From contig JAIXQP010000023.1 in NCBI GenBank assembly GCA_027485675.1, positions 62,001 through 126,000 of the forward strand: 64,000 nt of DNA, given 5' to 3'. This document shows, one piece after another, positions 29,054 to 47,166 of the stretch. The DNA is from Terriglobales bacterium. GTDB lineage: Bacteria > Acidobacteriota > Terriglobia > Bryobacterales > Bryobacteraceae. Under the pieces are notes generated by a model. The model made no database searches, was not told where the DNA came from, and worked only from the letters and a program-made list of their open reading frames with translations. The position numbers and the translations under genes are program-made. The stretch's first letter is position 1; the number at the start of each line of letters is the position of its first letter.

Positions 29054-29607
29054 CGCGCCATCAACCTCTCGAGATGCGCCTTCACCTCCGGCCACTCCTC
29101 CCGGATCACCGAAAAGTACACCGTGTCGCGCACATGGCCACTCCACGTGATCATATGCCGCCGCAGCGTACCCTCCTCCTTCGCGCCAATTCGCCGCATT
29201 GCATCCTGCGAGCGCACGTTCCGCCGGTCCGTCTTCAATTCCACCCGGTGCAAACCCATCTCCTCAAACGCGTGCGTCAGCAGCAGGTATTTGCACTCCG
29301 TGTTCACCCCGGTGCGCTGATATTCCAGGCCGTACCACGTCGACCCGATCTCCAGCCGGCGATGCGCCAACTCCATGTTCATATAGCGCGTCGCGCCCGC
29401 CAGCCGTCCCGTCGCCCGGTGCCGCACCGCGAAGGCCCGCGTCTTGGCGTCGGCGATCGCCCGTGCAATGTAGGCGTTCATCTCCTCGGCCGTCGTCACC
29501 CGCTCGACGCCCACCTCCCACAGCGATGGCTCTAACCCGATGGCGCTCAACTCCGGCCCGTGTTCCAGGGACAGGGCTTCCAACTCGACGATTTTTCCCG
29601 CCAGCAT
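29050..29607 (-). CDS. GNAT family N-acetyltransferase (RimJ/RimL-like)
   Basis: 185 residues. The GNAT fold is seen in RLEIGSTWYGLEYQRTGVNTECKYLLLTHAFEEMG, where the Q/R-x-x-G-x-x-like loop binds acetyl-CoA, followed by LHRVELKTDRRNVRSQDAMRRIGAKEEG, the classic 'N..S..A..R.GF..EG' segment of RimJ/RimL-type enzymes, and a last strand DTVYFSVIREEW. Substrate unknown; ribosomal-protein, peptide or small-amine acetylation are possible. Divergent from a sulfatase gene 23 bp away and overlapping the ABA4-like gene downstream. Confidence 0.88.
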   Translation of the reverse strand: MLAGKIVELEALSLEHGPELSAIGLEPSLWEVGVERVTTAEEMNAYIARAIADAKTRAFAVRHRATGRLAGATRYMNMELAHRRLEIGSTWYGLEYQRTGVNTECKYLLLTHAFEEMGLHRVELKTDRRNVRSQDAMRRIGAKEEGTLRRHMITWSGHVRDTVYFSVIREEWPEVKAHLERLMAR

Positions 29608-29630
29608 TCCCTGCTACAGTAGCGATTCAG

Positions 29631-30914
29631 ATGAATCGCCGCAACTTTCTGCTCGCTTTGGCTGCACCCCAGCCCCGGCCCAACATCCTCTTCCTGTTCT
29701 CTGACGATCAGCGCTTCGACACCATTCGCGCCCTCGGCAATACGGAGATTCAGACCCCCAATCTGGACCGGCTCTGCGCCCGGGGCGTGGCCTTCACCCA
29801 GGCAACCATCATGGGCGGTAACCAGGGCGCCGTCTGCGTGCCCTCCCGCGCCATGATGCTGACCGGCCAAACGCTCTATCACGCCACCGATGCCCTGGCC
29901 GGCAAGCGGCCGTATCATCTCTGGCCCGCCGTGTTCGCGCAGGCCGGCTACCAGACCTACGGGGCAGGGAAGTGGCATAACGGCCCCAAGCTGTATCACG
30001 AGGCCTTCGCGGACGGAGGGCCGATCCTGTTCGGGGGCATGGACAACCACTATCGCACCCCGCTTTACCGCTTCAATCCCTCTGCTGCGTATTCACCAGC
30101 CAACGCGGAACGATCGCCGCAACAATCCGCCACTGAATTGTTTACCGAAGGCCTGCTCGGCTTTCTGAAACGCCGCGACCAAACGAAGCCATTCTGCGCG
30201 TATGTCGCCTTCACCGCCCCCCACGATCCGCGCCAGGCCCCGCCCGAGTGGCTGGCCAAGTATCCGCCCGAAAAGATCCAACTACCGAAGAGCTTTCTAC
30301 CCCAGCACCCCTTCGACAACGGGGAACTCGCGGTGCGCGATGAGAAGCTGCTGCCGTTCCCACGGACGCCCGAAGCCGTGAAGAAGGAGATCGCCGATTA
30401 CTACGCGCTGATCTCCCACCTCGATAGCCAGATCGGCCGCATCCTCGATGCCGTGGACGAGAACACGATCATCGTCTTCGCGGGCGACAACGGCCTGGCC
30501 CTCGGCCGGCATGGTTTGCTCGGCAAACAGAATCTGTATGACCATTCGATCCGGGTACCGCTGATTGTTGCCGGTCCCGGCATCCGGCGGGGGCGGAAGA
30601 GCCCGGCTCTCGTGCAACTGCAGGACTGCTTTGCGACGCTGTGCGACCTCGCTGGGTTGCCGAAACCGGCCACCGTCGAAGGAGAGTCGTTTGCTCCCGC
30701 GCTGCGCGGGCAGACGTTCGCCGGACGTTCGCATACGCTGCACTATTACCGGGACTTCCAGCAAGCGGTACGAACCCCGACGCACAAGCTCATTCGCTAT
30801 ACCGTGAAGGGGCAAACCACGCGCCAACTGTTTGACCTGCGCCGCGACCCGTGGGAGATGAACAGCCTCTCCGATGCGCGCAAAATTGCCGAACTCGAAG
30901 TGCTACTGGGCTGA
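29631..30914 (+). CDS. Exported Cys-type sulfatase
   Basis: 427 residues from the ATG at 29631; the longer open frame upstream runs antisense to the acetyltransferase and is not credible. The N-terminus NRRNFLLAL fits a Tat-type RRxFL motif with a short hydrophobic region. Sulfatase_N motifs: ILFLFSDDQRFD (metal ligands), C69-V-P-S-R where Cys becomes formylglycine, YGAGKWHNG, VAFTAPHDPRQAP, and VFAGDNGLALGRHGLLGKQNLYDHSIRVPLI. S1-family arylsulfatase type hydrolysing sulfate esters, probably periplasmic. No maturase gene is in the window. The last 12 nt overlap the convergent RidA gene. Confidence 0.92.
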   Translation: MNRRNFLLALAAPQPRPNILFLFSDDQRFDTIRALGNTEIQTPNLDRLCARGVAFTQATIMGGNQGAVCVPSRAMMLTGQTLYHATDALAGKRPYHLWPAVFAQAGYQTYGAGKWHNGPKLYHEAFADGGPILFGGMDNHYRTPLYRFNPSAAYSPANAERSPQQSATELFTEGLLGFLKRRDQTKPFCAYVAFTAPHDPRQAPPEWLAKYPPEKIQLPKSFLPQHPFDNGELAVRDEKLLPFPRTPEAVKKEIADYYALISHLDSQIGRILDAVDENTIIVFAGDNGLALGRHGLLGKQNLYDHSIRVPLIVAGPGIRRGRKSPALVQLQDCFATLCDLAGLPKPATVEGESFAPALRGQTFAGRSHTLHYYRDFQQAVRTPTHKLIRYTVKGQTTRQLFDLRRDPWEMNSLSDARKIAELEVLLG

Positions 30915-36188: not shown

Positions 36189-36667
36189 ATGAACAGAGTG
36201 CTCCCCGGGTTCCGGACCGCGAACCGGGTACGCACCGCCCCTGGGCTGCTGGGGGAAAGCAACGCTGTTGGGTATTGTAGCGCGATTTCGGTGCATTCCG
36301 GGCTGGATTTTGGTTCCTCCGGGTACGGGATTTGGAAGAACCCAACGCGGAAGTAGCTTTATTTCAATTACTTCCTGGGTTCATGCTTCATTTTTTGCTC
36401 CTCTGTTTTGACCGCCGGCGTCTGCCGTGGATCCTGTTGGCAGTGTGTAGTTGGCCATGGTGATTTCATTGTGAAGGGGCGGCGGCGGGAATTCGGGGCA
36501 CCGTTGCGCGGAAGGCCCGTCCTTATTGGCCGAAAATATTTTGATTGTCTGTGAATTCCCCACGCCGGTCTGGCGGTGGCAGCAGACGATAACCGTCAAT
36601 TGGAGTCTCCCGGGAGCATCGGGATGAAGGGCGATCTATAGTTCTCGATCAAAAAAGTAGACTGCTA
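36189..36667. other. Intergenic DNA, no gene recognised
   Basis: About 480 bp between the rplM promoter and the leader-ORF promoter, visibly richer in A and T than the flanking genes. A 7-bp inverted repeat (36349-36355 with 36369-36375) is followed 17 nt downstream by six T on the plus strand, too distant to be a sound terminator. Short frames here (for example minus 36381-36599) show no protein-like composition. It may contain distal regulatory sites for the receptor operon. Confidence 0.4.
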
Positions 36668-36696
36668 TTGACTCCGGTTGGAATACGCCTTATTCT
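36668..36696 (+). promoter_or_regulatory. Strong sigma70-like promoter driving a leaderless Cys leader ORF
   Basis: TTGACT (36668-36673), a 17-bp spacer and TATTCT (36691-36696): five of six and four to five of six to consensus, with ideal spacing. Six bases separate the -10 from an ATG at 36703, which would place the transcription start on the A of that ATG. One of the clearest promoters in the window. Confidence 0.65.
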
Positions 36697-36702
36697 CGAT
36701 CT

Positions 36703-36771
36703 ATGAACTCGTCTGATAATCGACGGACTTTCCTGCTTCCCTGCTCGCTTCCTTCCTGTTGTTGTTGTTAG
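36703..36771 (+). CDS. Predicted leaderless 22-codon leader ORF ending in four Cys codons
   Basis: The ATG sits 7 nt after a good -10 element, so the mRNA should start at or next to it. The peptide starts MNSSDNRRTF and ends LPCSLPSCCCC-stop, with four consecutive TGT codons before TAG and an earlier fifth Cys. It ends 61 nt before the ATG of the Oar-like receptor, whose Shine-Dalgarno is AAGGAG at 36817-36822. Bases 36750-36754 (TCCTT), just before the Cys run, are complementary to AAGGA of that site. Consecutive cysteine codons in leaderless leader ORFs form cysteine-responsive attenuators in mycobacteria; a similar role here is inference. No known protein family. Confidence 0.5.
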   Translation: MNSSDNRRTFLLPCSLPSCCCC

Positions 36772-36832
36772 CCCCTCCCTCGGCCCCACTCATTCCCCCT
36801 GATAACCCGACCTCGCAAGGAGCTAACTTCTT

Positions 36833-39800
36833 ATGCCTAAGGCACTTCTCTATCTTTTCGCCGTACCGGTGTTTGCGCAGATCGACTCGGGCGCCGTATC
36901 CGGACTCGTCCGCGATCAGTCCGGAGCCGCGATCCCCTCGGTGGCGGTTTCGATCACGAATACGGCCACCAACATCGAAACGCGTCTCTCCACCAACGGC
37001 TCCGGCTTCTACTCCGCTCCCGCCCTGCGTCCGGGCGTCTATCGGTTGCTTGCCACCAAAGAAGGTTTCGCCAAGGCCCAGCGCGATGCCGTCGAACTCC
37101 GCGTCCAGGATCGACTCGAAATCAACTTCGACCTTGCCATCGCCGGCACGGCCACCGAACTCACCGTCTCGACCGAAGCGCCGCGCCTGGAATCGGAATC
37201 CTCTTCGCTCGGCAACGTCGTCGCCAGCCGCACCATTCTCGATCTGCCCCTCAACGGCCGGAACTTCAGCCGCCTGGCCACCCTCGGCGCCGGCACCCTG
37301 CCCGCCACGAAATCAGCCGAGCGCGACTCGTTTGTCGCGAACGGCGCCCGCCCCGTGCAGAACAGCTACCTGCTCGATGGCATTGAGAACAAGAACCGCA
37401 TCGTCGGCTTTGATAACGGCACGGCGCAGACCATTCAGCCGGTGCTGGACGCCATCCAGGAGTTCAAAGTCCAGACGAGCACGTACTCGGCCGAGTTCGG
37501 CCAATCCGCCGGCGGCGTAGTCAACGTCTCGCTCCGCGCCGGAGCGAACGACCTGCACGGCAGCCTGTTTCATTTCCATCGGAACTCGGCGGTCTCCGCG
37601 ACGCCGTACTTTCAGCCGGTCCGCGGCCAGAAACCCCAGTTTCTGCAGAACCAGTTCGGGGGCACGTTGGGGGGGCCGATTGTAAAGAATCGGACGTTCT
37701 ATTTCGGCAGTTGGCAGAGCTCCCGCGAACTGAGCGCCGCACCGCAGATTGCGACCGTTCCTCCTCTCGATCTGCGTGCCGGCGACTTCGGCACGCGCAA
37801 TGTCTTTGATCCGGATACCACCCGCCCGAACCCCAACGGAACGGGCTTTGTCCGCGACCCGTTCCCCGGCAATCGGATTCCCGTTAGCCGCTGGGACCCG
37901 GTGGCGGCGAAGGCGGCGCCGCTCTACCCGGAGCCGAACCTTCCCGGAGCCGTCCGCAACCACTTCTACAACCCCAAACAGACCGTCTTCGGCGAGCAGG
38001 GCAATCTTCGCATCGATCATCAGGTGAATGACAAGAACTCCCTGTTCGGCCGGGTCTCGATCAGTGACGGCCGCAACTCGCTACCGACGCTCCTGCCGGC
38101 GCCGGCGAGCACCCCGGTGTTGGCAACGCCGACGGCGCAGTCGATTGCTGCCAGCCATACGCGCATCTTAACGACGTCCGCCGTGAACGAATTCCGTTTC
38201 GGCTTTATGCGGACCCGGCTGCAGCAGTCAACGCCCACCGACCGGCTGTTCGAATCGTTTGGCATTCGCGGGGTGTTTGATGACCCCACGGTGAAGGGTC
38301 TGCCCACCTTCGGCGTCACCGGGCTTTCGACGTTGGGCACCACCGGCCCCGGCAACCTGCCGATTGGCGCCACGGGGTCCGGCAACCTGCCCATCGACAA
38401 GTGGGGACGGGTACTGCAGTTCACGGACACGCTGAACTGGGTGGTTGGCAAGCACACGCTGAAGTTTGGCGTGGATGTGCAGGAGGCGCGGCTGTTCGGC
38501 TTCGTGACGCTGCAGGCCCGGCCGGCCATTAACTTCACGGGCGTCTACTCCCAGAGCCCCCAGGCACGGGCCAACACCGGCTCGCCCTATGCCGACTTCC
38601 TGCTCGGTTACGCCGCGAACACGACGATCTCTAACCGGCCGCGCAATGAGACCCGTCAGCGCATCTTCCAGGGCTTCGTGCAGGACGATTGGAAGCTCTC
38701 TTCGAAGCTGACCCTGAATCTGGGTCTGCGCTATGAGCTCGCGCTGCCCTGGATTGAGGTGGACAACCGGCAGTCCTCGCTCATTCTCGAGGCGGGGCCG
38801 CTGTATGGCAAGCTGCTCCAGATTCAGGATCTGGCGGGCACGGGCTACAACCGGTCGTTCATGAATACGGACCGGAACAACTTCGCGCCGCGGGTTGGCT
38901 TTGCGTATAAGGCCACCAGCAAGACGGTGGTTCGTTCCGCGTTCGGGGTGTTCTACGGCCGCGATGAAAACCTGGGGATTTCGCGGCGCATTACGAACAA
39001 TCCGCCGTTCTTCGTGCGCACGCAGATTGTCGGCGATCAGGTGGTGCCGAACTTCATCCTTTCGCAGGGCTACCCGGCGGGTATTCTCGAGCCGGAGCGG
39101 ATGGTGAACCCCGAGGTGAACTCCGTGCCGAAGGATTCTCCGCTGCCCTACATCCTGCAATGGAACTTCAACGTCCAGCAGGAGCTGCCGGGACGCTTCG
39201 TGCTCCAATTCGGCTACACCGGTTCGGGCGGCCGCAAGCTCTACTACACGGCCAACGTGAACCAGCCGCTGCCCGGGCCGGGTAACGTGGATGCGCGGCG
39301 CCCCATTCAGGGCTTCAGCGGCATCTTCAATTGGGCCCCGGTCTTCAAGTCCAATTACAACGCGTTCACCACACAGTTGGACCGCCGCTTTGCGAATGGG
39401 TTTAGCCTGCTGGCGTCCTACACATACGGTCACTCGATCGACGACGGTCCGGCCAACAGCGAAACCAACGATCCGGCGCCGCAGGACGTGCGCAACTTCC
39501 GGGCCAATCGTGGCGATTCGAGCTTCGATATCCGGCATCGCTTCGTGACGAGCTACAGCTACGAGCTGCCGTTCGCCCGGACAAACCGGTGGCTCTCCGG
39601 CTGGCAGATCTCCGGCATCACCAGTTGGCAGACGGGATTGCCGTTCACGCCGGTGCTGAGCTTTGACCAGACGAACACGGGGACGATCGCGCGGCCGAAC
39701 CGGATTGCCGATGGCAACCTGCCGGCCAGTCAGCAGTCGATTGACCGGTGGTTCGATACGAACGCGTTCGTCGCCCCCGCTGCCTTCACCTGGGGCAATG

Positions 39801-40046: not shown

Positions 40047-42584
40047 ATGAGAACCCTTGTTTTAGCCTTCACCGCACTCCCGCTGCTGGCGGGAGTGGAT
40101 TTTGAAAGCAAAGTGCGGCCCATTTTGGTGGGGCGCTGCTACGCTTGCCATTCGGCCGCCACGAAGCCCGCCGGGTTTCTGCGCGTCGACGACCGCACGG
40201 GCTTCTTCCGGGGCGGCGACTCCGGCCCGGCCGTGGTGCCGGGTAAACCGGAGGCGAGCCTGTTGCTGCAACGCATTGAACACGCCGACCCGCGCCGCCG
40301 CATGCCCCGGGAGAGCCCGGCGCTCAACGCCGAGGAGATCGCGACGTTGAAGACCTGGATTGCCGAAGGCGCCGTGTGGCCGGTGGAGACGCTGACCGTG
40401 ACGCCTGCCAAGAACACCGCTGGGTATCTGCAGCTCCGGGCGAAGCACTGGGCGTTCCAGCCGCTGCGGAACCCGGTCCCGCCGCCGGTAGCCAACCGCG
40501 CCTGGCCGGCCACGGCCGTCGACCAGTTTCTGCTTGCGCAACTCGAGCAGAAGCAACTCAAGCCCGTGGGCGATGCCGACCGCCTGACGCTCGTCCGGCG
40601 CGTCACCTACGATCTCACCGGACTGCCGCCCACGCCCGCCGAGGTGGATGCCTTCCTGGCGGATAAGTCCCCGCAGGCTTACGCCAAACTGGTCGACCGG
40701 CTGTTGGCGTCACCGCGCTTCGGGGAACGCTGGGGCCGCCACTGGCTGGACGTGGCGCGCTACGGCGAGTCCTCCGGCCCATCGCGCAACATCCCGTACC
40801 CGCACGCCTGGCGCTACCGGGCCTATGTGCTCGATGCGGTGAACCGGGACGTACCGTACAACCAGTTCCTCCGCGAGCAGATTGCGGGCGACCTGCTGCC
40901 TGCCGCCTCTCCGGCCGAACGGGATCGTCTGTTGATCGCCACCGGCTTTCTCGCTCTGGGGCCGAAGGACGTGAACCAACGGTTCAAAGAGCGGTTTCAG
41001 ATGGACAACGTGGCCGAGCAGATCGACACGGTCACGCGGTCGACCGTCGCTCTGACCGTATCCTGCGCGCGCTGCCATGACCATAAGTTCGATCCGATTC
41101 CCACGGCGGATTACTACTCCCTGGCGGGGATCTTCACGAGCACCGACGATGCCGCCGGCGTCCGCAACAAGATGGGCGGCGCGGGTCTGGACTACTATGA
41201 TCCTTCGATGCTGCTCCGCCACTCGGCGTATCAGCCGAAGGCGGACCCGGCCACGCTCTCGCGTCTTGAGGCGGACCTGGCCACGGCGAAAGCGGAATGG
41301 GAGGCCATCCGCGGCACACCGGAGGGCTTGAAGATCGCCGCCAACGGCCGCCCCACGCAGCAGCCCTTTCGCTTGAAGTACGAGAAGCTGCAGAAGGAGT
41401 GGCTCAGCCTGACCGACCATGGGACGCTCGGCTACGCGATTCACGGGGTGCGGGACGCAAAGCAGATCGCCGATACCAATATTCGCGTGCGGGGCGAAGC
41501 CGAACTGCTGGGACCCGTGGCGCCGCGTGGTTTTCTGACGGCGTTTGCCGTACCGGACGCGCCGCCGCTCAACCGCGCGCAGAGTGGCCGTATGGAACTG
41601 GCTCAGTGGTTGACCAGCGACCAGAACCCGCTCACGCCGCGCGTGGTGGTGAACCGGATCTGGCAACATCTCTACGGCGAAGGGCTCGTGAAGACAGTGG
41701 ACAACTTCGGGTTGACCGGAGACCGGCCCTCCCATCCGGAGCTGCTGGACTATCTGGCTGCGCAGTTCGTCGCGGATGGCTGGTCGGTGAAAAAGACCGT
41801 ACGCCGGGTGGTGCTATCCCGCAGCTATCGTTTGGCTTCGACGAAGGTTCCCGCGAATGTCGAGGTGGACCCGGCGAACCGTCTGGTGTGGCGCCACGCG
41901 CCCCGCCGGCTGGACGCCGAAGAGGTGCGGGACTCGATTCTGCTCTCCTCGGGGCGCTTGCAGCTCAACCCGCCGCCGGCGTCTGCGGCACAAGCGCTGA
42001 GCATGATTGAGATGCGGGACAACGGGCCCGAGTCCCGCGCCATCATCGAACAAGCCGATGGCAGCTTGGCGCGAAGCGTCTATCTGCCGCTGCTGCGCGG
42101 GGTGACGCCGCGGGCGCTCGAAGCCTTTGACCCGGTGACCCAGACGCTCGTCACCGGGCAGCGTGATGCGACCACGGTGCCCACGCAGGCGCTGTTCCTG
42201 ATGAACTCGACCTTCGTACGGCAACAGTCGTTGGCGCTGGCCAGCGACCTGCTGGCCCAGGCCGGCAGCGAGGCGGACCGCATCCGGCAGGCCTATCGGA
42301 GGATTCTCAATCGCCTGCCGACAGCGCAGGAGCTTGACCGGGCGGCCAGCTTCGTTCACGAGTACGCGGCGGCCTACCGGGCCCCGGCTCCGTCGCTCGC
42401 GGCTCCGCCCGTAACGGCCAAGCCCGTGGTGAACCCCGCGACCCCTGCCGACCCCGACAACATCGACCGGACGGAGATCCGCCCGGCCGAACCCGAGATC
42501 CGCCCCGCGAACGCCCAGGCTGCCGCGTGGATGAGCTTCGCGCAGGCGCTCTACGCCTCCGCGGAATTTCGTTTCGTTCTGTAA
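40047..42584 (+). CDS. PSCyt1-DUF1549-DUF1553 cytochrome-like exported protein
   Basis: 845 residues from the ATG at 40047; the longer frame overlaps the receptor end. Signal at 1-15. C31-Y-A-C34-H35 is a c-type haem motif in a planctomycete-cytochrome domain (30-110). DUF1549 at about 150-360: VDQFLLAQLEQKQLKPVGDADRL, RVTYDLTGLPPTPAEVDAF, SPRFGERWGRHWLDVARY, and TVSCARCHDHKFDPI, a second CxxCH. DUF1553 at about 535-790: LAQWLTSDQNPLTPRVVVNRIWQHLYGEGLV, DNFGLTGDRPSHPELLDYLA. These modules occur in operon with DUF1501 in Planctomycetes and Acidobacteria, probably in periplasmic polymer oxidation; activity is unproven. Confidence 0.9.
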   Translation: MRTLVLAFTALPLLAGVDFESKVRPILVGRCYACHSAATKPAGFLRVDDRTGFFRGGDSGPAVVPGKPEASLLLQRIEHADPRRRMPRESPALNAEEIATLKTWIAEGAVWPVETLTVTPAKNTAGYLQLRAKHWAFQPLRNPVPPPVANRAWPATAVDQFLLAQLEQKQLKPVGDADRLTLVRRVTYDLTGLPPTPAEVDAFLADKSPQAYAKLVDRLLASPRFGERWGRHWLDVARYGESSGPSRNIPYPHAWRYRAYVLDAVNRDVPYNQFLREQIAGDLLPAASPAERDRLLIATGFLALGPKDVNQRFKERFQMDNVAEQIDTVTRSTVALTVSCARCHDHKFDPIPTADYYSLAGIFTSTDDAAGVRNKMGGAGLDYYDPSMLLRHSAYQPKADPATLSRLEADLATAKAEWEAIRGTPEGLKIAANGRPTQQPFRLKYEKLQKEWLSLTDHGTLGYAIHGVRDAKQIADTNIRVRGEAELLGPVAPRGFLTAFAVPDAPPLNRAQSGRMELAQWLTSDQNPLTPRVVVNRIWQHLYGEGLVKTVDNFGLTGDRPSHPELLDYLAAQFVADGWSVKKTVRRVVLSRSYRLASTKVPANVEVDPANRLVWRHAPRRLDAEEVRDSILLSSGRLQLNPPPASAAQALSMIEMRDNGPESRAIIEQADGSLARSVYLPLLRGVTPRALEAFDPVTQTLVTGQRDATTVPTQALFLMNSTFVRQQSLALASDLLAQAGSEADRIRQAYRRILNRLPTAQELDRAASFVHEYAAAYRAPAPSLAAPPVTAKPVVNPATPADPDNIDRTEIRPAEPEIRPANAQAAAWMSFAQALYASAEFRFVL

Positions 42585-42595
42585 AGGAAATGGCC

Positions 42596-43933
42596 ATGTT
42601 GAAACCACTCTCTCGCCGTACTCTGTTGCGCTCCGCCGGCGCCGGCTTCGGCCACCTGGCGCTGACCGGTCTGCTGGGGGCTGCCAATCAGCCTTTGGGC
42701 GTGAAGGCCCCGCACTTCCCGGCCAAGGCGAAGCGCGTGATCTTCCTCTTCATGGAGGGCGCGATCTCGACGCTGGACACGTTTGAATACAAGCCTGCGC
42801 TGCAGGCCAACGCCGGCAAGACCGGGCCCGGCGGAGGCATCATTACGCCTTCTCGTTTTGCCTTCAAGCGATACGGTCAGACCGGCGCCTGGTTCTCGGA
42901 GCTGATGCCGAACATCGCCCAGCACGCCGATGACTTCTGCTTCGTGCGCGGTTTGCACACCGATACCCCGGCGCATCCGCAGGCCGTGGTGCAGTTGCAC
43001 ACGGGCTCGGCGAACGCGGCGTTGACGCGTCCCAGCATGGGTTCGTGGCTGCTCTATGGCCTGGGCACGGAGAACCAGGACCTGCCCGGATATGTGACGA
43101 TCAACCCGCCGCCCAACTTCGGCGGTGCGGTGAACTACGGCAGCGCGTTTCTGCCGGCGCACTATCAGGGCACGCGGATTAGCGATGAGGGTTACCTGCC
43201 GAATCTGGAGGCGTCGGCCGCAGCGGACCTGCAACGGCGGCAGCTGAACCTGATCCAGTCGATGAATGCGGGCTTGGCGAAGTCGGCCCAAGCGCCGGAT
43301 CCGGTGGAGGGGATTATTGAGTCCTACGAACTGGCTTTCCGGATGCAGGGCAAGGTGCCGGAGTTGCTGGACCTGTCGAAGGAGCCGCAGGCGGTGCTCG
43401 ATGCGTATGGGGTGAAGCCGGGGCCGGAGGGCTCGTTTGCGCGGCAGTGTTTGATGGCGCGGCGGCTTTCGGAAGCCGGGGTGCGGTTCGTCGAGATCTG
43501 CCAGGGTGGCTGGGACCACCACACGAACCTGCACAAGGGGCTGATTGCGCGGAGCCGGGATGTGGATCAGGCGACGGGGGCGCTATTGGCGGACCTGAAG
43601 CAGCGGGGCTTGCTCGAAGAGACGCTGGTGATTTTCGGCTCGGAGTTCGGGCGGCTTCCGATGGCCCAGGGTTTCGATGGACGGGACCACAACATTACCG
43701 GCTACTCGATGATCCTGGCGGGCGCCGGGGTGAAAAAGGGTTTTAGTTACGGGGCGACGGATGAGCTGGGGGTAAAGGCGGTGGAAGGCCGCATGCACAC
43801 GAACGACCTCCATGCGACGCTGCTGGCGATCCTGGGCTTTCACCACAAGCAATTGACCTATCGCTACTCCGGCCGCGACTTCCGGCTGACGGACGTGGCG
43901 GGGGAGGTGCATTCGGGGATCCTTGCCTCGTAG
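42596..43933 (+). CDS. Tat-exported DUF1501 protein
   Basis: 445 residues from the ATG at 42596, six bases after AAGGAA; an in-frame ATG at 42590 has no room for a ribosome site. Tat signal: LSRRTLLRSAGAGFGHLALTGLLG. DUF1501 (sulfatase-like fold) signatures: VIFLFMEGAISTLDTFEYKP, LPNIAQHADDFCFVRGLHTD region, GSWLLYGLGTENQDLPGYV, RFVEICQGGWDHHTNLH, and LVIFGSEFGRLPMAQGFDGRDHN. The WDHH and EFGR motifs are the conserved metal-ligand-like residues. Nearly always adjacent to DUF1549/1553 proteins, as here (11 nt), suggesting a complex. Substrate unknown. Confidence 0.92.
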   Translation: MLKPLSRRTLLRSAGAGFGHLALTGLLGAANQPLGVKAPHFPAKAKRVIFLFMEGAISTLDTFEYKPALQANAGKTGPGGGIITPSRFAFKRYGQTGAWFSELMPNIAQHADDFCFVRGLHTDTPAHPQAVVQLHTGSANAALTRPSMGSWLLYGLGTENQDLPGYVTINPPPNFGGAVNYGSAFLPAHYQGTRISDEGYLPNLEASAAADLQRRQLNLIQSMNAGLAKSAQAPDPVEGIIESYELAFRMQGKVPELLDLSKEPQAVLDAYGVKPGPEGSFARQCLMARRLSEAGVRFVEICQGGWDHHTNLHKGLIARSRDVDQATGALLADLKQRGLLEETLVIFGSEFGRLPMAQGFDGRDHNITGYSMILAGAGVKKGFSYGATDELGVKAVEGRMHTNDLHATLLAILGFHHKQLTYRYSGRDFRLTDVAGEVHSGILAS

Positions 43934-45019: not shown

Positions 45020-45814
45020 ATGCGGTTGTGTCTTTTCTTTGCGCTGCTGATTGCCGGCGGGCTCCCGGCGGCGACCGTCGGGCCCACCGGCCGCTTTCTT
45101 CCGTTGGTCCACGACGGGGGCGGCTGGTCGACGCAGGTCACCGTGATCAATCTCTCCGAGAAGCCCGAAACGATCGTTCTCTCGTTTATTCCGCCTGGCG
45201 GCTTCGCCCAGGAGTGGCCACTGAGACTCCGCGCGACCAATGGCAGAGTGAACCGCAACTCGGTGGACGCCATTCTGCTGCCCGGCGCGGTTTCGGTTAT
45301 CGAGACCAGCGGATCCGCGGAAGCTCTGACGCGAGGCTTCATTGAACTTTATGCGGTCGGCGACCAACCGTTCGGCGCGTTTGCCACCCTGGTCCAACGC
45401 GATGGCGACAAGGTCCTCCAACGGATTCATGTGCCTCTGACGCCCGCGCACGAGAAGAAATCGGTGGTACCGCTCGACCTGTCTGATCCTGCGGCCAAGA
45501 CGGAGATCATCTGGGTCACGATGACCACAACCACGACTCTGGATCTCGAGTTCCGCGATCACGCCGGCGCCTTAGTCTGGAGTGAACAGGTTTATATGGA
45601 AAACAGAGCCCAAGTCTTCGTCAATCTGCTCGAACGATTCCCCGAGTTGAAGGATTTTCGAGGGACGATGCACTGGTACGTTTCGTTTCCCGGCGCCGAT
45701 CGCTATGAGAACCGCACGTTGGGAGGGATGGCGCTCCTATCGAGAGACGGGCAGGCCACCGTGTCCACGGGGATGACGTTGACGGTGGATAAAGCCTCGA
45801 CGAGCCCCTATTGA
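45020..45814 (+). CDS. Exported beta-sandwich protein, unknown function
   Basis: 264 residues from the ATG at 45020, chosen because the signal peptide MRLCLFFALLIAGGLPAATVG begins there; 37 upstream codons are not signal-like. The mature part has regular beta strands, for example FLPLVHDGGGWSTQVTVINLSE, ETIVLSFIPPGGFAQEW, GFIELYAVGDQPFGAFATLVQ and a Thr-rich strand WVTMTTTTTLDLEF. This 'LPLVxDGGGWxTxVTVxN' start is reminiscent of Ig-like adhesion domains in Solibacter-type secreted proteins, but no family is claimed. Convergent with the sulfatase gene, overlapping 7 nt. Confidence 0.6.
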   Translation: MRLCLFFALLIAGGLPAATVGPTGRFLPLVHDGGGWSTQVTVINLSEKPETIVLSFIPPGGFAQEWPLRLRATNGRVNRNSVDAILLPGAVSVIETSGSAEALTRGFIELYAVGDQPFGAFATLVQRDGDKVLQRIHVPLTPAHEKKSVVPLDLSDPAAKTEIIWVTMTTTTTLDLEFRDHAGALVWSEQVYMENRAQVFVNLLERFPELKDFRGTMHWYVSFPGADRYENRTLGGMALLSRDGQATVSTGMTLTVDKASTSPY

Positions 45815-47166
45815 CGCGGGCGGTGGAGGTGTCCGCGATCCCAGGTTTCGAGCCGGCCCTTGAGTTCGGCAAAGATGTCCTGGTGCGCCGGGTCGTCGTG
45901 CAGACTGCGGAGTTCGTCCGGATCCTTCTGGCGGTCGTAGAGCTCCCAGCCGCCGTCGTCATAGCGCGTTAATTTCCATCGTTGGGTGCGCAGCATTACG
46001 GCGCGGTCCACGCCCTCAAAGCCCTGACCGCCGAAGATGGCGCGGTCGGTGACGGGCAGGTCCTCGCGCCAATGGGGAACCATCGATTCGCCGTGCAGGT
46101 TGGTCAGGGGAGGCAGGTTGAGGAGTTCGAGGAGCGTGGGCAGGATGTCGACGCCGGAGGCGGGCTGCCGCACGATTTTGTGGCGTGGCAGGGGCAGGGG
46201 CGTGCGGATGATCCACGGCACGCGGACGGCCGGCTCGTAGAAGGCGAAGCCCTTCGTGAACATCCGGTGGCGGCCCATGGTGTCCCCGTGGTCGGCTGTA
46301 TAGACGATCACCGTGTTGCCGGTCAGGCCCAGCGCTTCCACGCGGTCGAGGATCTGCCCGACCAGGTGGTCCGTGTAAGAGACCATCCCGTAGTAGTGGG
46401 CGAGGATCGTTTTCAGTTGCTCATCCGTCAGTTGGTCGGCGTGTTGGTTGGTGGACCAGGTTCGCTTTTGGCGGGCCGGTTTCTCGTCGTACTCTCCGGC
46501 GCGGTAGGCGGGCAGGGCGAGCTTGGCGGGGTCGTACAGGGTGTCGTACGGGCGGGGAACCACGTAGGGGTCGTGCGAGCCGTGCAGGCGGACCCAGCAG
46601 CAGAAGCGGCGCTGGTGATTGGCTTCGAGAAAACGGAGCGCCGCGTTGGTGACATAAGCGTCGTAGGTGTGTTCCGGCGCCAGGCCCGCCCGGCCGGTCT
46701 CGAACCGGTAGGGCGTGGGAATGAGCTTGGCCATGTCGCGGGAGCCGATGATGCGGTTGTCGATATCTTCGTAGCCGAGCGATTTTGCCCATTCGGCGTA
46801 GGCTTTGGGATCCCGGGAGACGATGTAGCCGTGGCGCTCGAGTTCCCGGTGGATGGACGGCACATCGGCGGGAATGGGCAGGCCGTTAGTGCGGACGCCG
46901 TGCGAGCTGACGTGGAGACCGGTGTCCATGGAGGCGCGGGAGGGCGCACAGGTCATGCCGGCCGTGCAGGTATCGAGAAACGTGACGCCGGATCGGGCGA
47001 GGCGTTCGAGGTGGGGGACCTTGATGTAGGGGTCTCCGGCCGCGGGGAGACAGATGCCGGAGTGTTGGTCGGCGATGATGTAGATGAGGTTGAGCGGCGC
47101 GGCCGGCGGCTGGGCGACGGCCGCGGCCCCGAGCGTCGAAAGAAACTGGCGGCGGGAGAGCGGCAT
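45808..47166 (-). CDS. Tat-exported Cys-type sulfatase paired with receptor copy 2
   Basis: 452 residues. Twin-arginine signal SRRQFLSTLGAAAVAQ. Sulfatase motifs: NLIYIIADQHSG, C73-A-P-S-R (formylglycine site), GSHDPYVVPRP, and VIVYTADHGDTMGRHRMFTKGFAFYEPAVRVPWI with metal-binding D-H. Domain ends with WKLTRYDDGGWELYDRQKDPDE, the common sulfatase C-terminal strand region. It starts 3 nt after the receptor stop, so both are on one transcript; release of sulfate from a sulfated glycan or its fragments imported by the receptor is a plausible inference. No FGE or anSME maturase is nearby. Confidence 0.92.
   Translation of the reverse strand: MPLSRRQFLSTLGAAAVAQPPAAPLNLIYIIADQHSGICLPAAGDPYIKVPHLERLARSGVTFLDTCTAGMTCAPSRASMDTGLHVSSHGVRTNGLPIPADVPSIHRELERHGYIVSRDPKAYAEWAKSLGYEDIDNRIIGSRDMAKLIPTPYRFETGRAGLAPEHTYDAYVTNAALRFLEANHQRRFCCWVRLHGSHDPYVVPRPYDTLYDPAKLALPAYRAGEYDEKPARQKRTWSTNQHADQLTDEQLKTILAHYYGMVSYTDHLVGQILDRVEALGLTGNTVIVYTADHGDTMGRHRMFTKGFAFYEPAVRVPWIIRTPLPLPRHKIVRQPASGVDILPTLLELLNLPPLTNLHGESMVPHWREDLPVTDRAIFGGQGFEGVDRAVMLRTQRWKLTRYDDGGWELYDRQKDPDELRSLHDDPAHQDIFAELKGRLETWDRGHLHRPRQ

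Follow-up and report, generated by a model that had tools for sequence, protein, structure and literature searches.

The receptor operon described here is preceded by a short open reading frame that ends in four cysteine codons, and this leader is probably a translational attenuator like those of mycobacteria, mediated by the ribosome and responsive to cysteine, in a new phylum and with a new target. The layout of the sequence suggests that a ribosome short of cysteine switches the receptor operon on. The locus lies in a stretch of 64,000 nucleotides from a Terriglobales bacterium (the window; genome G000), and its features are collected in Table 1. The initial annotation had placed the promoter, the ATG, the four TGT codons, the TAG, a 61-nucleotide gap between the leader stop and the receptor ATG, TCCTT at 36750–36754, and AAGGAG at 36817–36822; all of these positions hold, and its proposal of a leaderless Cys-run leader tied to the receptor operon is supported by conservation. 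The order and domains of the receptor, PSCyt/PSD1, and DUF1501 genes are shared by two relatives in the genus, G001 and G008, and no sulfur role is assigned to any of the three genes.

Table 1. Coordinates of the leader, its regulatory elements, and the operon in the window
Feature	Position	Strand	Remark
TAGACT element just 5′ of the -35, possible regulator site	36658..36663	+	invariant in three-member genus alignment, also in G011
Promoter TTGACT (36668-36673), 17 nt, TATTCT (36691-36696)	36668..36696	+	9/12 consensus positions
Leader ORF MNSSDNRRTFLLPCSLPSCCCC, then stop; 22 codons, predicted leaderless	36703..36771	+	ATG 6 nt past -10; stop TAG 36769-36771
Four terminal Cys codons (TGT x4), proposed sensing site	36757..36768	+	CCCC in 4/4 receptor-bearing genus members, CCC in G215
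Putative anti-ribosome-site segment GTTAGCCCCT (GUUAGCCCCU): 3′ end of the Cys run, stop, next 5 nt	36767..36776	+	9/10 pairs with 36818-36827
Spacer, C-rich and G-poor	36772..36832	+	48% C, 13% G (base composition)
Ribosome site AAGGAG, then CTAACTTCTT	36817..36832	+	AAGGAGC(T/G)AACTTCTTATG kept in four genus members
Oar-like outer-membrane receptor, 1067 aa	36833..40036	+	domains PF25183 OMP_b-brl_4, PF13620, PF00593
PSCyt1/PSCyt2/PSD1 protein (DUF1549/DUF1553)	40047..42584	+	start read as 40047
DUF1501 protein	42590..43933	+	start read as 42590

In the proposed mechanism, RNA polymerase would start at the ATG (36703) or no more than two bases from it, giving a leaderless mRNA that opens with the small ORF. 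With charged tRNA-Cys plentiful, ribosomes would pass the four Cys codons, terminate at the TAG at 36769, and leave; the freed segment 36767–36776 would then pair with 36818–36827 and hide the Shine-Dalgarno sequence, and the receptor operon would be poorly translated. When Cys-tRNA(Cys) runs low, a ribosome stalled on these codons would cover the last of them, the stop, and the adjoining bases, the pairing would be blocked, and the receptor, PSCyt/PSD1, and DUF1501 proteins would be made. We infer that the leader is translated, that ribosomes stall on it, and that cysteine is the signal. Leaderless polycysteine short-ORF attenuators have reportedly been described in mycobacteria by Canestrari et al. 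in 2020. Those attenuators resemble this leader in being short ORFs with Cys codons close to the stop and an operon downstream. They are also leaderless and carry, over the following ribosome site, a fold that stalling would disrupt, two features that are predicted for the leader described here. They are said to belong to Actinobacteria and to act on cysteine metabolism, whereas the leader described here stands before a receptor/PSCyt/DUF1501 operon in Acidobacteriota, with its Cys run directly at the stop and a promoter joined to a conserved start word.

The leaderless start at or near 36703 is predicted from the position of the promoter and its conservation. A promoter search of about 700 bp on both strands returned one match, as compared to 0.5 ± 0.8 in shuffled sequences, so the match is weak taken alone. 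TTGAC and TATTCT are common to all four genus members, the six nucleotides between the -10 element and the ATG are kept in relatives, and the identical layout precedes seven other short leaders of the family. Upstream of all five receptors at approximately 79% identity or above, the query's own included, the promoter and the start are retained and the ORF ends in CCCC or CCC; four of these receptors are within the genus (G000, G001, G008, and G011) and one is in another genus (G215). The stop is directly preceded by CCCC in G001, G008, and G011 and by CCC in G215. The initial annotation had suggested checking whether the Cys run, rather than the rest, is conserved, and the five leaders show this pattern, with an interior amino acid identity of 19–33% among relatives that keep the Cys ending. 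It had also named, as an outcome that would refute the idea, close relatives that keep the operon and have lost the Cys codons; such loss was sought in the four relatives at or above approximately 79% identity and not found. TGC/TGT variants occur within the run and leave the amino acid unchanged, and the G008 leader has one additional codon, in frame. On sequence grounds, this pattern of a kept ending and a drifting interior is the decisive evidence that the leader is real. Fifteen receptor matches at 50–59% identity, three of them without a usable upstream region, show no such leader. One of these matches, L187, has a TTG frame ending in CC that lies within the sequence of the preceding gene.

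The pairing partner of the stop segment is AGGAGCTAAC (AGGAGCUAAC), and with wobbles allowed the number of pairs out of 10 is nine in G000, eight in G001, 10 in G011, and nine in G008. In three genus members no other 10-mer of the leader pairs as well as the stop segment, and in G008 the segment ranks second. The leader–receptor spacer measures 61, 61, 326, and 68 nucleotides in G000, G001, G011, and G008, respectively, and the pairing in G011 is perfect although repeats separate the arms. Masking a ribosome at the first or last Cys codon lowers the computed cost of opening the ribosome site from 11.2 to 8.3 or 7.9 kcal/mol in G000, from 11.1 to 6.5 or 5.4 kcal/mol in G001, from 13.5 to 8.8 or 5.8 kcal/mol in G011, and from 8.7 to 7.1 or 6.7 kcal/mol in G008. 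The opening cost depends on the stop segment in G001 and G011 (fractions of 100 shuffles reaching it, 0.01 and 0.00), marginally so in G000 (0.07), and is independent of it in G008 (0.58). For the leaders in G215, G084, G076, G003, and G207, no dependence on the segment is seen (0.35–0.92), and the cost in G084 goes up on masking. When the energy of the duplex between stop segment and ribosome site is compared with shuffles, p = 0.10, 0.07, 0.001, and 0.69 in G000, G001, G011, and G008, respectively, and the advantage is clear only in G011. The whole leader fold is no more stable than shuffles (z = -0.40). Mean accessibility of the ribosome site goes from 0.08 to 0.06 on masking in G000 and rises little in G001 and G008, because AAGGAG and CTTCTT can form a small local hairpin there. 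In these folding models, support for a hidden ribosome site is clear in two genus members, marginal in one, and absent in one; such hiding is proposed on the basis of the conserved pairing potential together with the folding energies. The initial annotation had a ribosome on the Cys run covering an anti-Shine-Dalgarno segment, and that general idea is kept in the proposed mechanism, with the conserved partner at 36767–36776 in place of TCCTT. The TCCTT:AAGGA helix appears in the predicted fold here and is not conserved in place, with TCCTT, counted from where the stop codon ends, starting at -22 in G000, at +3 in G001, and at +17 in G008, and absent in G011; it was therefore dropped as the main element.

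The same Cys sensor could instead act through Rho-dependent transcription attenuation, with the free C-rich spacer loading Rho after the TAG and a stalled ribosome blocking the loading, a reading that is rather unlikely. The best 60-nucleotide C-minus-G value of the spacer is 0.35. Of the window positions, 0.3% attain this value, and the highest among 24 upstream regions of control receptors is 0.28; values above all controls are also found in G001, G008, G076, and G003, and the length of the spacer varies among genus members. In contrast, the G215, G084, and G207 leaders reach only 0.23–0.25, within the control range, the pairing kept at the end of the Cys run is left unexplained, and a ribosome would probably leave most of the spacer exposed. 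Rho has precedents in related settings. PMC1262725 describes leader peptides with runs of Cys codons ahead of actinobacterial cys/cbs operons, reports no conserved terminator, and suggests Rho for these leaders, and PMC9426467 reports Rho for the upstream ORF before the Bordetella receptor gene bfrG. The actinobacterial leaders of PMC1262725 resemble the leader described here in their Cys codon runs near the stop and their lack of a terminator, and differ in phylum and targets and in the anti-ribosome-site pairing proposed here. No intrinsic terminator-like site was found between the leader and the receptor, and the window gave no Rfam matches at gathering scores. Both features set the leader apart from the uORFC-8-2 motif, which in PMC8632094 is likewise an upstream ORF with tandem Cys codons, there linked to the CysS synthetase gene and an intrinsic terminator, whereas the leader described here precedes a receptor.

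The arrangement was also sought in the organism's own genome and across the family. A run of four Cys codons is more than chance, as Cys makes up 0.76% of the codons in 46 CDS-like window ORFs. In the own genome (97% complete), two CCCC-TAA/TAG sites are present, and the second (L225) lacks the promoter plus start. A promoter-blind Cys-run search with TGYTGYTGYTRR gave 92 places as compared to 61 for the reversed control; 30 places became loci, the 13 of these that had a stop codon were read, and only one of the 13 CCC-stop frames, the leader at 36703, has the promoter at its start. Across 237 family genomes, a promoter-blind search with TGYTGYTGYTGYTAR, in which the reversed control was often the more frequent and columns were not summed, gave 70 CCCC-TAA/TAG sites. 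All were read, and five carry the promoter plus start. Four of these are copies of the leader, each in a different genome, and the fifth, in G003, directly precedes a PSCyt/DUF1501 pair. A search for the promoter-to-start word that ignored Cys content gave 28 places versus five for the reversed control, and 11 of the 28 combine ATG, promoter, and a frame of at most 60 codons, comprising the four orthologues and seven others. At least two Cys are found in five of these seven, endings of CC to CCCCC before the stop in four, and receptors downstream of three (G076, G084, and G215); among five word-bearing short frames without the promoter, two have at least two Cys and none has Cys at the end.

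These leaders bear on another reading, in which the conserved feature is the promoter plus ribosome site and the small ORF is translated without a regulatory role, or the Cys codons persist incidentally, through an RNA element (GUUGUUGUUGUUAG). The short leaders L066 and L067 share the promoter and start without a Cys run, and long reading frames start at the word in L064, L065, L080, L103, L109, and L110. TGT, the rarer Cys codon in window CDSs (22 of 138), is favored in the leaders (30 of 39 Cys codons in nine leaders, the four orthologues among them), a bias that counts for this reading and for the attenuator alike. The TGC/TGT variants that keep the amino acid, the in-frame length change in G008, and the CCC, CCCCC, and CC runs before the stop at other loci argue against this reading, which is quite improbable.

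Sensing of metal or redox state by the cysteines of the nascent peptide is very improbable. The model for it is CruR (DUF2946; PMC9426467), a 145-residue upstream ORF before the TonB-dependent receptor gene bfrG, whose nascent chain senses copper by means of a CXXC motif and ribosome stalling. The CruR CXXC sits 45 residues before its arrest motif RAPP, whereas the leader cysteines directly precede the stop and should not yet have left the ribosome when they would have to act. RAPP is absent from the five leader peptides, and the leader interior is not conserved. In CruR, and as proposed also in the leader, a stalled upstream-ORF ribosome decides the expression of an outer-membrane receptor gene, and the two differ in that the leader has 22 codons, terminal Cys codons, and no RAPP.

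The neighborhoods of the other family leaders touch on sulfur in several cases. The Cys-bearing leader in G207 neighbors a Cys/Met PLP enzyme and an Rrf2 regulator, that in G084 an Rrf2 regulator and methionine synthase, and a leader without Cys in G043 has a thioredoxin-like protein and a sulfurtransferase downstream. By eye, the ORF beginnings in five regions around Rrf2 orthologues in the genus show no obvious sulfur neighbors. A general cysteine regulon in the genus was rejected, with such a leader in none of the 30 cysD/cysH loci read (39 matches); a shared operator at cysD/cysH promoters was inspected by eye only and is not claimed. A promoter model (R1), nine of whose 10 training sequences had been picked for Cys codons, was set aside as evidence, its best family matches being mostly its own training set. 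A reading of 20 further R1 loci (L100–L119) gave two short leaders outside that set, MQYTSIHSYCCR (G195) and MYSLIRGLCGCRLSSSR (G191, with its ATG 3 nucleotides further on), both before receptors, along with MNYSIANSNLEI (G043, no Cys), already among the word matches, and a five-codon TTG frame without Cys (G007). Among 396 genomes drawn evenly from the phylum, the own genome and family included, no strong match was found outside the family (best outside 3e-4, stricter filters).

To our knowledge, little regulation is known in Acidobacteriota. It is possible, though doubtful, that Bryobacteraceae hold a small set of leaderless Cys-run leaders that tie outer-membrane uptake to tRNA-Cys charging, and that the receptor–PSCyt/PSD1–DUF1501 cassette, so far named only after its domains, is a system for obtaining organic sulfur that acts with an Rrf2/CymR-like regulator; the set is taken as small, and not general, because cysD and cysH of the genus lack such leaders. 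If the attenuator is real, leaderless-ORF cysteine attenuation would have arisen or persisted far outside Actinobacteria, and the leader would offer a simple reporter test case in Acidobacteriota. Cysteine attenuation would then act on nutrient uptake through the outer membrane. Control keyed to cysteine would suggest a sulfur-containing substrate for the operon, which would serve sulfur acquisition, and would provide a regulatory clue to the role of the uncharacterized PSCyt/PSD1 and DUF1501 proteins.

The Cys-run leader is real and conserved. Its promoter, ORF, Cys run, stop codon, spacer, and ribosome site all lie where the initial annotation had placed them, and the three operon genes that follow are separated by short intergenic gaps; an NCBIfam search of the three operon proteins returned no name above cut-off. 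A TAGACT element at −35 is conserved, and the stretch matching this region in G084 and G215, two other genomes of the family, appears by eye to be near-palindrome-like, as in TAGTCGATCTACAAAGTAGACTA (loci L070, L076, and L085 compared). An Rrf2 gene lies close to the leaders of both G084 and G207. A 26-nt imperfect direct repeat (73%, common TTCTCGATC) has one copy upstream and the other across the −10 element and leader start. Two sulfatase-domain proteins flank the operon at a distance of some kilobases.

Features of the leader-receptor locus (window positions) and the leader peptides of the genus
Feature	Position	Sequence
Leader peptide, own genome (G000)	36703-36771	MNSSDNRRTFLLPCSLPSCCCC
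Leader peptide, genus-mate G001		MNSTVSRDPLLRPSLFLFCCCC
Leader peptide, genus-mate G011		MNSTIHRDRCFRSSYVALCCCC
Leader peptide, genus-mate G008		MNSAIGQDRSFLPFGSFCICCCC
Oar-like outer-membrane receptor, first operon gene	start read as 36833	
PSCyt1/PSCyt2/PSD1 protein, second operon gene	start read as 40047	
DUF1501 protein, third operon gene	start read as 42590	
Pairing segment	36767-36776	GTTAGCCCCT
Segment opposite, at the ribosome site	36818-36827	AGGAGCTAAC
TAGACT element with the -35	36658-36673	
-10-to-start word	36691-36717	TATTCTC-ATCTATGAAGTCGAGTATT
Direct-repeat copies	36642-36667; 36693-36718	
Sulfatase-domain proteins	29199-30914 and 45808-47166 (-)	

Among the 19 genus genomes searched, four receptors are 87–100% identical, the remaining matches listed being at most 44%, and the leader is present at all four; that of G008 is longer by one codon with the reading frame kept. 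Among these four, the Cys run and stop share 93–100% DNA identity versus 44–53% (19–33% of residues) for the leader interior, and codons 1–3 are identical. At 26 other receptor loci read in the genus, no Cys-ending short frame was found, and five carry short frames with internal Cys pairs. The own genome holds 55 receptor matches, of which the upstream region was read for the one in the window. Across the family, 20 receptor matches at E ≤ 1e-250 occur in 18 of 237 genomes. A fifth receptor, from another genus (G215), is 80% identical and is preceded by the leader MKSSISTERHRLTVLRSASTCCC. Such a leader is found at none of 15 receptors of 50–59% identity, three of which (L183, L187, and L188) lack a usable upstream region; L187 has a TTG frame, LARTATGCC, that falls within the preceding gene's sequence, and other small Cys-containing frames occur at L177 (MNSSAPHFRCCTQVRLLIPR) and L185 (MPRLRNSVIHICTCT).

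A search for CCCC-TAA/TAG that ignored the promoter gave 70 sites in 59 of the 237 genomes. All were read for a −35/−10 pair and, no more than 50 codons away, an ATG or GTG in frame. Five possess both: the four orthologues and the genus-mate G003, whose leader, MKSSIVFRQVSHIRCRCCCCC, lies immediately 5′ of a PSCyt/PSD1–DUF1501 pair that lacks a receptor. The leader thus accompanies the cassette in two arrangements. In G003 (L075), GATCCCGTACACGGGATC and then a T-rich stretch, terminator-like by eye, lie between the leader stop and the PSCyt gene.

When Cys was ignored and up to three mismatches were allowed, the promoter-to-start word was found 28 times, in 27 of the 237 genomes (reversed control, 5). 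A fixed rule (ATG; −35 matching at least 4/6; 16–19 nt; TANNNT; 4–8 nt; frame of at most 60 codons) retained 11, the four orthologues and seven others. Five of these seven leaders have at least two Cys, and four (L069, L070, L075, and L085) carry a terminal run of CC to CCCCC; L084 has five Cys and ends CF, L067 has one Cys, and L066 has none. The 17 places dropped comprise six frames of at least 85 codons with the promoter present or nearly so (L064, L065, L068, L072, L073, and L080), a long frame without a promoter (L063), five short promoterless ATG frames (L062, L071, L082, L083, and L088), of which L071 and L082 have four and two Cys, none terminal, and five places without ATG. TGT makes up 30 of 39 Cys codons of nine leaders, four of them orthologues, and 22 of 138 Cys codons of 46 CDS-like ORFs of the window. 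The −10-to-start word and its variants (L064, L066, L067, L101, L103, L109, and L110) are shared within Bryobacteraceae, preceding short leaders and also long, apparently leaderless frames, among them Oar-like receptors (L103, L109, and L110) and a thioredoxin-like protein (L064).

Receptor genes lie downstream of the G076, G084, and G215 leaders, and likewise of the G195 and G191 leaders, found with a promoter model trained on 10 sequences, nine of them picked for Cys codons. Sulfur-gene neighbors are single-locus associations rather than counts against a control: in G207, a Cys/Met PLP enzyme plus an Rrf2 regulator whose nearest curated equivalog is CymR (76 bits, short of the 195-bit cut-off); in G084, methionine synthase plus an Rrf2 regulator; downstream of the Cys-less G043 leader, a thioredoxin-like protein and sulfurtransferase; and, behind a weak promoter match (E 1e-4) in G023, a sulfate-binding protein and sulfate permease. 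None of 30 cysD/cysH loci read in the genus has such a leader, which counts against a sulfur association.

The TCCTT (36750-36754) that the initial annotation paired with the ribosome site does not keep its place, starting at −22 from the stop-codon end in G000, +3 in G001, and +17 in G008, and is absent from G011. A repeat finder instead identified a segment that runs from the second base of the terminal Cys codon through the stop to five bases beyond it. Counting wobbles, the bases of this 10-mer that can pair with the ribosome site number 9 in G000, 8 in G001, 10 in G011, and 9 in G008. Because its position was picked on G000, the other three serve as a test, albeit one limited by their common ancestry and by GTTAG being partly set by codon and stop. 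The segment is the sole best 10-mer of the leader in G000, G001, and G011; in G008, one other reaches 10. In G011, repeats and an N run separate the two arms, and pairing is still perfect; by eye, the inserted repeats in the 3′ part of this spacer (L034) are head-to-tail with an inner inverted repeat, and both arms are intact. Against mononucleotide shuffles of the segment, duplex energy gave p values of 0.10 (G000), 0.07 (G001), 0.001 (G011), and 0.69 (G008).

In all four genus members, the ribosome site is computed to open at a lower cost once the leader is masked as by a ribosome at the first/last Cys codon, the cost falling from 11.2 to 8.3/7.9 kcal/mol in G000, 11.1 to 6.5/5.4 in G001, 13.5 to 8.8/5.8 in G011, and 8.7 to 7.1/6.7 in G008. 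Comparison with 100 shuffles each shows this cost to be segment-dependent in G001 and G011 and marginally so in G000; G008 shows no such dependence. Mean accessibility shows no release of the ribosome site, because a local AAGGAG/CTTCTT hairpin takes over. Rho might instead load on the spacer, with the same Cys-run sensor as in the translational model; the spacer is C-rich and G-poor, like a Rho-loading site, and we regard this alternative as unlikely. In G215, G084, G076, G003, and G207, neither duplex nor opening-cost computations show segment dependence, so these leaders, if regulatory, may use another output.

Mycobacterial leaderless polycysteine short ORFs are reportedly cysteine attenuators (Canestrari 2020). 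A paper from 2005 noted Cys-run leaders in Actinobacteria and suggested Rho (PMC1262725), and one from 2015 proposed that mycobacterial Cys-rich uORFs act as attenuators (PMC4633059); a tandem-Cys-codon uORF has been linked to CysS (PMC8632094), and a Bordetella TonB-dependent receptor gene is under uORF control via copper and Rho (PMC9426467). Our literature search, which covered few subscription papers, returned no report of a cysteine leader from Acidobacteriota, nor of one preceding a receptor/PSCyt/DUF1501 operon. The leader is most likely a translational attenuator, which we infer to be cysteine-responsive, and most likely a variant of the cysteine attenuation by Cys-run leaders that is already known.
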